A stretch of 20,677 bases of DNA from a virus. Positions 9,680-13,985 of the stretch are shown here, piece by piece. The stretch is from positions 1-20,677 of IMG/VR virus record IMGVR_UViG_3300017772_000176; one strand, written 5' to 3'. The notes beneath the pieces are model-generated. The model searched no databases. It was not told where the DNA came from and worked only from the letters and a program-made list of their open reading frames with translations. The translations under genes were made by a program, and so were the position numbers. Position 1 is the first letter of the stretch; each line of letters begins with the position of its first letter.

Positions 9680-10213
9680 ATGGTCAGTAAACAGAAGTAT
9701 TTTAAATGTGTCACTCAGCCGTTCAGCGTGAGTTACCCAAGCCTTCACAAGCCAAACACTGAAGGTAACTTTCCTAGCAACAAGTACGAAGTTACAGCGT
9801 TGTTAGATGAAACTGAACACGCCGATACACTAACGGCTATTAAGTCAGCGGTAAATTCAGCTTTCCAAGCAGAGTGGGCAGATCAGGATGTGTCTGATAA
9901 ACACAACCCGATACGCAAACAGCCTGATGGCACATATAAAATTAAGTTTAAAACTAAGTCAGCGCCAATCTTAGAAGACGCTACAGGTAGCAAGTTGTCA
10001 GATGGCATCATCATTGGGTCTGGGGATTTAGTTAGATGTGCTTGTAATGTTGCAGCCTACTCTGGTCCACAGTCTGGAGTCACAATTTACTTAAACAAAG
10101 TAAGGCTGATCGAAAAGCGTTCTATTGGTGACGGTGTAGATGATTTTGGTGGTCCTGAAGATGGGTTTAACCAAGCCACAGCAGAGACAGCATCAAGTGC
10201 CATCAACTTCTAA
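9680..10213 (+). CDS. Phage single-stranded DNA-binding protein (gp2.5/DUF2815-like)
   Basis: The product is 177 aa. AAAGGAGGAAAAGAA gives an ideal ribosome site. The sequence has the layout of OB-fold phage SSBs: YEVTALLDETEHADTLTAI near residue 35, a charged middle (KPDGTYKIKFKTKSAP type), and GSGDLVRCACNVAAYSG followed by VTIYLNKVRLIEK. The C-terminal third is acidic and flexible (GDGVDDFGGPEDGF), as in T7 gp2.5, where the acidic tail contacts polymerase and helicase. Its order after RNA polymerase and before nuclease and primase-helicase is the T7 gene 2.5 position. Assignment to DUF2815 versus gp2.5 proper is uncertain. Confidence 0.75.
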   Translation: MVSKQKYFKCVTQPFSVSYPSLHKPNTEGNFPSNKYEVTALLDETEHADTLTAIKSAVNSAFQAEWADQDVSDKHNPIRKQPDGTYKIKFKTKSAPILEDATGSKLSDGIIIGSGDLVRCACNVAAYSGPQSGVTIYLNKVRLIEKRSIGDGVDDFGGPEDGFNQATAETASSAINF

Positions 10214-10745
10214 ACAAAAACTAGCTAACAAAAGCAAATCAAGTTGCCCCCTACAATTTGACGAGCCAAAGCCGTCCTTGTTGCCTAAAGAATTATCTTT
10301 TTCTTTACAAGAAGGGCGCAACCTTACAGCAAGCCATGTAGAGTCACTGAGTCTGTACTACTCAAAGTTAACAAGAAAGCAGTACAGAGCCTTACCGTCT
10401 GCTACTAGGTCTAAACTTCGATCAACAATACGTCGTCACTTTCATCATCTTTTAAAGAGCGAGCCGTCGTGGATATACATCATTGTAAATCCGGCGTGGC
10501 CTGAGTATTGTAAAATTGGAGTATCTAACGACATAAAGCACCGCGTGTGCTTATACAACACTCACTCGCCATTCGGCGACTTCACGTGTGTCTATGCTGA
10601 GTTCTTTCATGAACACGATAGATACATTGCCCAGATGTATGAACACTTCGGTTTGCAACGCGCCGAAGGGGAATGGTTTAAAGTTCCAGCGTCAGAAGCC
10701 ACTGCATACTTAAGCGTATTAAAGGAGAAATCAGATGTTGTTTGA
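10161..10745 (+). CDS. GIY-YIG-like (T5orf172/MUG113) nuclease
   Basis: The product is about 194 aa. The start is uncertain: ATG 10161 is 8 bp after GGTGG, ATG 10140 is also in frame, and both overlap the SSB gene in another frame by more than 50 bp. After a basic N-terminal region, residues about 105-190 carry the T5orf172 signature: IYIIVNPAWPEYCKIGVSND, then VYAEFFHEHDRYIAQMYEHF and a final EGEWFKV. These form the two-strand core, Arg-containing helix, His/Glu helix and terminal strand. Such proteins are predicted DNA endonucleases. The gene may be a mobile or recombination nuclease inserted where T7 carries endonuclease I. It overlaps the next gene by 11 bp. Confidence 0.7.
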   Translation: MGLTKPQQRQHQVPSTSKQKLANKSKSSCPLQFDEPKPSLLPKELSFSLQEGRNLTASHVESLSLYYSKLTRKQYRALPSATRSKLRSTIRRHFHHLLKSEPSWIYIIVNPAWPEYCKIGVSNDIKHRVCLYNTHSPFGDFTCVYAEFFHEHDRYIAQMYEHFGLQRAEGEWFKVPASEATAYLSVLKEKSDVV

Positions 10746-12825: not shown

Positions 12826-12840
12826 AGGTATTACCTATAT
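12826..12840 (+). promoter_or_regulatory. Family-1 near-palindrome, site 4 (AGGTATTACCTATAT)
   Basis: This is an exact consensus copy directly after the primase-helicase stop. Its end forms an ATG (12839-12841) in frame with the methyltransferase, but the true ribosome site GGAGGA follows at 12848. It could control or initiate transcription of the methyltransferase genes with a leader of about 20 nt. Confidence 0.55.
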
Positions 12841-12860
12841 GAATACTGGAGGAAGTAACT

Positions 12861-13985
12861 ATGTGGATAATTCCACAAAACTACCAACTGTCATCAGCTT
12901 TTGTAGCGGATATGGTGGAATCGAGCGAGGACTTGACCTTGCCGGGTATGAACATCGAGTCATCGCTTATGTGGAGATCGAAGCCTTCGCCATTGAAAAC
13001 TTGGCAACGAAGATGGAAAACAAGCAGTTGGATGCCGCGCCTATATGGTCGAATGTTAAAACCTTCCCTGCACACCTCTTTCGAGACAAAGTTAGCCTCC
13101 TTACATCCGGCTATCCGTGTCAACCTTTCTCAGCTGCAGGAGAACGAAAAGGAACAGAAGACCCCAGACACTTGTGGCCGTACATCCGCGAACATATCAG
13201 AACAATTAGACCTACTCGGGTCTTCTTTGAGAACGTCGAAGGACACATCTCGCTTGGACTCTCCACAGTCATCAGCGACTTGGAAGAAGATGGTTACGTC
13301 TGCTCGTGGGGAATATTCAGCGCGGAAGAAGTTGGCGCTCCCCATAGACGCAAGCGGGTCTACATCTTGGGCAACGCCAAGAGCCGCTGACTCAGCCGGA
13401 GGGCCAAGGACATTAAACGAAAAGGGCCAACGAATATCAGTCAGCGATCCGACAAAGACCTATGGCGCTAATCTCAGCGATCAGGTAAGGCACTGGCCTA
13501 CGCCCTCGGCGCGAGATCATAAAGGAGGCAGTGGGACTGTCGTACAAGAAGGTGACAAGTTTTATCGGGTATCAAACACCACTCAAACCCGATTCGGAGC
13601 AAGACTCGATGCAGTAGTTGAGCATTTAAATAAGACCAACTGGCCGACACCGACTGTTGGAGAAGAAAAATTTCGATTGAAAGGGAATTCCCAAGCAAGT
13701 CAGTGTCTTGAAGCCAAAGCTAGAAAAGGAGAACTAGATAATCGTGTTGGGAAACTAAACCCAGATTGGGTAGAGCAATTAATGGGTGTGCCTCTAGGTT
13801 GGACATCATTAACAGGAACAAACACTGATTGGACTTATGGGTGGCATGGCGGCTCGTGGGAGAAAGGTATTCCTCGCGTAGTGGAGAGCATTGAAGACCG
13901 CGTAGATCGAATCAGATTACTAGGAAATGGCGTAGTTCCGGCTACAGCTGCTAAAGCATGGACAACACTTGGAGAACGATTATGA
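12861..13985 (+). CDS. Methyltransferase second half (target recognition, motifs IX-X), overlapping frame
   Basis: The product is 374 aa, in the +1 frame relative to the catalytic gene. ATG 12861 is 7 bp after GGAGGA, and the frame stays open for the entire length. The C-terminal 200 residues are clearly protein-like: three W-x-T-P repeats (WATPRAADSAGG at 170, WPTPSARDHKGG at 212, WPTPTVGEEK at 261), a motif IX-like LNPDWVEQLMGVPLGW, and motif X LGNGVVPATAAKAW near 355. These are what the catalytic half lacks, so the two probably assemble like split enzymes such as M.AquI. Upstream of 13390 the frame overlaps the catalytic gene but still has DTCGRTS and SSLRTSKDTS, resembling target-recognition proteins known beside such methylases. 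Translation could instead begin at ATG 13290. Confidence 0.68.
   Translation: MWIIPQNYQLSSAFVADMVESSEDLTLPGMNIESSLMWRSKPSPLKTWQRRWKTSSWMPRLYGRMLKPSLHTSFETKLASLHPAIRVNLSQLQENEKEQKTPDTCGRTSANISEQLDLLGSSLRTSKDTSRLDSPQSSATWKKMVTSARGEYSARKKLALPIDASGSTSWATPRAADSAGGPRTLNEKGQRISVSDPTKTYGANLSDQVRHWPTPSARDHKGGSGTVVQEGDKFYRVSNTTQTRFGARLDAVVEHLNKTNWPTPTVGEEKFRLKGNSQASQCLEAKARKGELDNRVGKLNPDWVEQLMGVPLGWTSLTGTNTDWTYGWHGGSWEKGIPRVVESIEDRVDRIRLLGNGVVPATAAKAWTTLGERL
12863..13390 (+). CDS. DNA cytosine-5 methyltransferase, catalytic half (motifs I-VIII)
   Basis: The product is 175 aa from GTG 12863, 9 bp after GGAGGA; ATG 12839 is an alternative that would begin inside family-1 site 4. The enzyme half should bind SAM and transfer methyl to C5 of cytosine. 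Motif I is ISFCSGYGGIERGL (residues 11-24); the motif IV nucleophile Cys86 is in SGYPCQPFSAAG; motif VI is FFENVEGH with Glu123; motif VIII is PHRRKRVYILGN near 162. It stops at AKSR just after motif VIII, where the target-recognition domain should begin; that domain and motifs IX-X are in the other frame. Phages use such enzymes to evade host restriction. No cognate restriction enzyme is seen. Confidence 0.85.
   Translation: MDNSTKLPTVISFCSGYGGIERGLDLAGYEHRVIAYVEIEAFAIENLATKMENKQLDAAPIWSNVKTFPAHLFRDKVSLLTSGYPCQPFSAAGERKGTEDPRHLWPYIREHIRTIRPTRVFFENVEGHISLGLSTVISDLEEDGYVCSWGIFSAEEVGAPHRRKRVYILGNAKSR

Follow-up and report, generated by a model that had tools for sequence, protein, structure and literature searches.

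Two overlapping reading frames of a putative phage cytosine methyltransferase behind an interlocked ATGTG start

The locus described here very probably encodes a two-subunit C5-cytosine DNA methyltransferase, the subunits of which are written in overlapping frames, begin at a shared ATGTG start, and would modify phage DNA. It lies in the 20,677-base IMG/VR virus record IMGVR_UViG_3300017772_000176, which is called the window throughout and supplies the coordinates; the gene in frame 2 is named alpha and the gene in frame 3 beta. As judged by the comparison of related sequences, long-term selection acts on both frames over the whole overlap. About 170 codons are kept in two frames across many phage lineages, and a distant branch of the family provides a within-gene control. 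This evolutionary pattern suggests that both proteins are made. Alpha would form the catalytic large domain with motifs I–VIII, plus motif X in most relatives, and beta the small domain with the target-recognition repeats and motif IX, plus motif X in the window variant. The 165-residue N-terminal extension of beta would have arisen by overprinting alpha. A single ribosome-binding site would place the ribosome at ATGTG, where initiation would occur sometimes at ATG, giving beta, and sometimes at GTG, giving alpha; both chains would then come together as a single active enzyme that methylates the DNA of the phage itself. Binding of alpha to beta and a need for both subunits are what such an arrangement leads one to expect, and the role of the enzyme would presumably be modification of phage DNA and its protection from host restriction.

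The locus and its two reading frames

The two frames and their motifs, as set out in an earlier note on this DNA, were borne out, and the positions were confirmed for alpha at 12863–13390 and for beta at 12861–13985. The features read from the sequence are the following:

12863..13390, plus strand: alpha, putative C5-cytosine methyltransferase catalytic subunit with motifs I–VIII, 175 aa
12839, plus strand: alternative in-frame start ATG of alpha
12899, plus strand: motif I of alpha, FCSGYGG
13109, plus strand: motif IV of alpha, GYPCQPFS
13229, plus strand: motif VI of alpha, ENVEG
13346, plus strand: motif VIII of alpha, RRKRVYIL
13388–13390, plus strand: stop TGA of alpha
12861..13985, plus strand: beta, the putative partner, 374 aa, with an N-terminal extension wholly over alpha followed by W-x-T-P repeats, motif IX, and motif X
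12863..13390, plus strand: dual-coded stretch of 528 nt, in which beta is the +1 frame and codon position 3 of alpha is position 2 of beta
13368..13652, plus strand: three W-x-T-P repeats in beta (WATP at 13368, WPTP at 13494, WPTP at 13641), presumed target recognition region
13755..13787, plus strand: motif IX-like LNPDWVEQLMG of beta, a motif that nearly all relatives likewise have in beta
13923..13940, plus strand: motif X, GNGVVP, in the beta frame in the window

Alpha matches PF00145 (3e-33 in a profile search) and features motifs I, IV (PCQ), VI (ENV), and VIII of this family in the correct order; the recognition region and motifs IX and X of PF00145 are present as well, but they are written in the beta frame. 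Residues 61–372 of beta match phrog_1008, 'DNA methyltransferase', at 1.5e-26, and the overlapped part of beta alone (residues 61–159) matches the same family at 5.5e-8. Neither Pfam nor NCBIfam recognises beta of the window or beta of Tadhana, and methylase genes may look broken or incomplete for this reason. Both genes are annotated in Tadhana and only one in C72C1 and ABMM1; the nested beta gene has probably escaped annotation, or been labelled hypothetical, in many other phage genomes.

The neighbouring genes of the methyltransferase locus encode RNA polymerase, integrase, primase/helicase, DNA polymerase, and exonuclease. Between 4528 and 9281 of the window, integrase and repressor genes adjoin the phage RNA polymerase gene, which suggests a temperate phage equipped with an RNA polymerase of its own. 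A further overlap occurs between an ORF for a Gp2.5-like ssDNA-binding protein (9680–10213) and the next ORF (10140–10745), which share 74 nt (10140–10213) if the first starts are used.

The interlocked start codons

The most remarkable feature of the locus, absent from the earlier note, is its interlocked ATGTG. As defines an AUGUG site, two interlocked start codons stand behind a single Shine–Dalgarno sequence (SD):

12848..12852, plus strand: SD GGAGG, at a spacing of 8 nt to ATG 12861 and of 10 nt to GTG 12863
12861..12865, plus strand: interlocked starts ATGTG, consisting of ATG (beta) and GTG (alpha), with the G at 12863 common to both

Among the 118 loci with a readable beta start, the site reads ATGTGG in 110 and GTGTGG in five; the remaining starts are ACATGG in two loci (L043 and L061) and ATGATT in one (L002). 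In L043 and L061, an alpha ATG occupies that place, and beta of L043 can start a codon earlier at GTG. L002 has no NTG at the alpha site; its alpha frame offers an ATG 7 nt further upstream. An SD-like sequence with comparable spacing precedes the start in 54 of 70 non-redundant relatives, mostly 5–8 nt before the ATG.

An alternative of low probability is that alpha starts upstream (at ATG 12839 in the window) or by early slippage from the ATG, with only beta using the shared ribosome-binding site. Upstream candidates in the alpha frame are indeed present in 56 of 115 loci—the window and L006 both carry an in-frame ATG at −22—and the W at residue 2 of beta could be kept for the sake of beta itself. 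The SD spacing of the window also favours the ATG by E. coli rules. Against this stands the GTG, which is the sole alpha start candidate before motif I in 59 of 115 loci; with one further locus that has an ATG there, 60 loci contain a single ATG, GTG, or TTG between the alpha-frame stop and motif I. In L036, the alpha frame is closed by a stop one codon before the GTG, and no ATG, GTG, or TTG of the alpha frame occurs in alpha codons 2–9 in the loci checked. The three loci deviating from the usual site likewise argue for an alpha start here, as their alpha ATG lies at the same place (L043 and L061) or at −7 (L002). A separate alpha start is possible in some members.

The preferred reading, initiation at both codons of the shared site, has a counterpart in E. 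coli: experiments in vitro and in vivo demonstrated that AUGUG behind one SD can start either frame, with AUG favoured 3.5- to 10-fold at permissive spacing (Kohl et al., PMC9841429). Both codons were clearly used by E. coli at a spacing of 4 nt after UAAGGAGG (PMC9841429). S. aureus reads some AUGUG sites unambiguously (PMC13009471). The spacing in the window, 8 and 10 nt, is longer than the 4 nt permissive in E. coli, so ATG, and hence beta, would be favoured by E. coli rules. Because of this spacing and the alternative ATG at 12839, the case for a shared start is stronger in the family as a whole than in the window copy. It is probable that in more than 100 phage loci a natural AUGUG/GUGUG start directs, from one ribosome-binding site, the synthesis of two long subunits of one enzyme, with the choice of start setting their stoichiometry and with the N-terminal domain of the partner wholly overprinted. 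The searchable literature, which covered a minority of subscription papers, yielded neither a description of the interlocked start of this family nor any natural AUGUG site whose two products are both long and conserved.

Selection on both frames and the predicted structure of the extension

If alpha is redrawn with synonymous codons while its amino acids are kept fixed, a mean of 9.3 beta-frame stops arises over 170 codons, and the beta frame was open in none of 5,000 such redraws; the chance of 2 in 10,000 previously assigned to the open frame is thus too weak a figure. Among the findings named beforehand as refuting dual coding were frame 3 stops upstream of 13290 in homologues and a single fused frame in relatives. 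Across alpha of 117 related loci, a beta-frame stop occurs in one of 20,208 codons, and fused frames are absent from the near relatives and present only far away. The sole near relative with a beta-frame stop is a copy in a Blastopirellula MAG (L065, 1151–1474), where the stop follows after 108 codons; this copy is possibly decaying.

Synonymous constraint on alpha, a check already proposed in the earlier note, gave the same picture. The identity at 4-fold sites of alpha between the window and L015, L016, L020, and L025 amounts to 0.69–0.75, versus about 0.28–0.40 for the helicase next door and 0.08–0.29 for the DNA polymerase in the same loci, with the reservation that both controls are also more diverged in protein (35–41% identity versus 73–77%). 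The synonymous choices of alpha avoid stops in the other frame: within the overlap, a beta stop is created at one of 1,837 sites (1,836:1), compared with 88 of 241 (153:88) in three other genes of the window that served as control, these counts and their p-values being drawn from related loci and not from independent events. The avoidance is present from the first codons, with a ratio of 524:0 in alpha codons 1–35. In the distant branch, the start of beta mostly lies some 50 nt ahead of motif IV, and the avoidance sets in at this point: stop-creating choices make up six of 1,259 inside beta versus 231 of 657 in the part of these alpha genes that lies upstream of it. This within-gene contrast is the cleanest control for dual coding. 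In addition, position 1 of alpha codons—position 3 of beta—is no less variable than alpha position 3 in codons 1–15 and 136–150. The amino-acid similarity of beta changes at alpha 4-fold sites does not discriminate (observed −1.51, expected −1.51), as transitions leave no alternative base. Taken with the open beta frame, the 4-fold constraint and the stop avoidance support the earlier proposal of dual coding over nearly all of the catalytic gene.

That frame 3 is under selection from the very first codons bears on a further alternative, a programmed +1 frameshift near 13370–13390 that would fuse alpha with the later portion of beta into one full-length enzyme and leave upstream frame 3 a mere bystander. 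A joined product of the window class would carry motifs I–X in order, and alpha of the window ends in ...CGC TGA C. Within this class, however, alpha stops at TGA, TAA, or TAG in differing contexts and at +526 to +547; the ends thus differ in stop, context, and position, and there is no conserved shifty site. Most relatives, having motif X in the alpha frame, would even need two shifts. A frameshift at the alpha stop is therefore very improbable and was rejected on account of the missing conserved site and the selection on upstream frame 3.

The constraint is not uniform along the beta extension, which can be divided into three segments:

12861..13085, plus strand: beta residues 1–75, constrained, 4-fold identity 0.66–0.86, predicted helices within 29–81
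13086..13235, plus strand: beta residues 76–125, weakly constrained, 4-fold identity 0.42–0.54, predicted disordered linker
13236..13355, plus strand: beta residues 126–165 (SKDTSRLDSPQSSATWKKMVT...), holding the most constrained segment, predicted long helix 135–158

The middle segment overlies the motif IV region of alpha, and the 4-fold identity reaches 0.90 over alpha codons 126–150. The AlphaFold model of beta alone is of low confidence (pTM 0.22), with a pLDDT of about 80 for residues 41–80, below 50 for residues 84–117 and 121–131, and 83 for residues 141–150. A fold search with this model gave no match below E = 1, as expected for a model of low confidence, and a sequence search of the PDB yielded no meaningful match. 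The predicted helices of the extension coincide with the constrained segments and the disordered part with the unconstrained one, which argues for the extension being more than an open corridor to the recognition region. The same coincidence speaks against the idea that a DNA or RNA element, and not a second protein, lies behind the conservation of synonymous sites. RNA structure alone could give conservation at 4-fold sites, but it would have to account for why stops in the beta frame are specifically avoided throughout the overlap and for a beta frame that begins at a start codon with an SD and runs unbroken into motif IX; such an element is highly improbable as the explanation.

Predicted alpha of L015 features a confident catalytic domain up to residue ~184, disorder at residues 185–283, and a confident motif X helix. 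In this model, the disordered part is the shadow of the recognition region of beta. The predicted L015 alpha is without a small domain, which would therefore have to come from elsewhere, and beta has one.

Relatives and comparison with known systems

One scan returned 537 relatives, and a plasmid search gave three weak matches. Beta lies in the +1 frame in 91 of 91 distant loci checked and in nearly all near ones, which come from many independent samples; a nested +1 beta over alpha is widespread in phages, as seen in the distant loci L147–L225 and L003–L005. Damage to an ordinary single-chain gene by a mutation or a sequencing indel, for which distant single-frame homologues such as L145 and L074 might be cited, has a negligible probability and is ruled out by the recurrence of the layout in 117 near loci and 91 distant ones. 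L145 is from Gordonia phage Baddon and L074 from Nocardiopsis; since single-frame homologues occur in distant actinophages (Baddon), the split form is probably derived. The annotated methylase of Baddon (L145, 2495–3565) and of Rita (L146, 2495–3664) has a long +1 frame with PTP/LPTP-like modules, which in Rita occur in both frames; these genomes are GC-rich, so the openness of the +1 frame alone is not evidence.

In 93 loci motif X is encoded in the alpha frame, whereas 19 loci have it in beta. The window-class loci with motif X in beta are L007–L014, L032, L080, L081, L083, and L086, and alpha of the loci with this placement ends at about 174–181 aa. On the alpha tree, motif X in beta requires five changes; the tree is weakly supported, and its starred branches force only one, so a repeated origin of this placement is not claimed. 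Motif X may have moved between the frames more than once. Depending on the relative, beta carries between one and seven W-x-T-P modules, as if modules were gained and lost, and specificity may change with them. The system opens direct tests of the subunit ratio, of the structuring of an overprinted domain, and of the movement of motif X between frames.

Overlapping two-subunit C5-methyltransferases, and a long overlap in split methylases, are already known. The nearest characterised precedent is M.EcoHK31I and not M.AquI, which the earlier note had named. The gene for the smaller polypeptide of M.EcoHK31I lies within that of the larger one, in a different frame; this beta is a short chain of 176 aa, and its start is located deep within alpha. 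In M.EcoHK31I (YGGCCR), the larger polypeptide carries motifs I–VIII and X, motif IX is confined to the smaller one, and the recognition domain is assigned to alpha (PMC3404938). The same motif layout over two polypeptides is seen in most relatives of the window, and motif IX of both the window and its relatives lies in a separate +1 frame overlapping alpha. The window differs by having motif X in beta instead of alpha, and its beta starts before the alpha start, covers all of alpha, and carries the recognition-like repeats.

For M.AquI, the overlap of the genes is small, whereas that of the window spans 528 nt, comprises the whole alpha gene, and is under selection. The likeness consists in the split of the window variant into alpha with motifs I–VIII and beta with motifs IX–X. 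The corresponding division in M.AquI (CYCGRG) is an alpha with motifs I–VIII and a partner with IX and X (PMC3404938). The nested pairs annotated in Paenibacillus larvae phages (for example Tadhana genes 54/55; phrog_1008) share with the window the beta family, its +1 nesting over alpha, and motif IX in beta; their beta, in contrast, is shorter and mostly starts about 50 nt before motif IV.

With respect to initiation, the AUGUG/GUGUG sites of E. coli pqiA, tamA, and narQ (PMC9841429) and Thermus rnpA–rpmH (AUGGAUG) also have one SD and two interlocked or adjacent starts in different frames, both of which are used. Thermus rnpA–rpmH is named there as the sole earlier bacterial case, and the alternative products at the described E. 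coli sites are short peptides (Kohl et al., PMC9841429). If the reading proposed here is true, ambiguous AUGUG initiation gains a natural case with two long conserved products. The second product of the E. coli sites is a short peptide of unknown function, whereas in the window family both frames are long and conserved and their products appear to be subunits of one enzyme.
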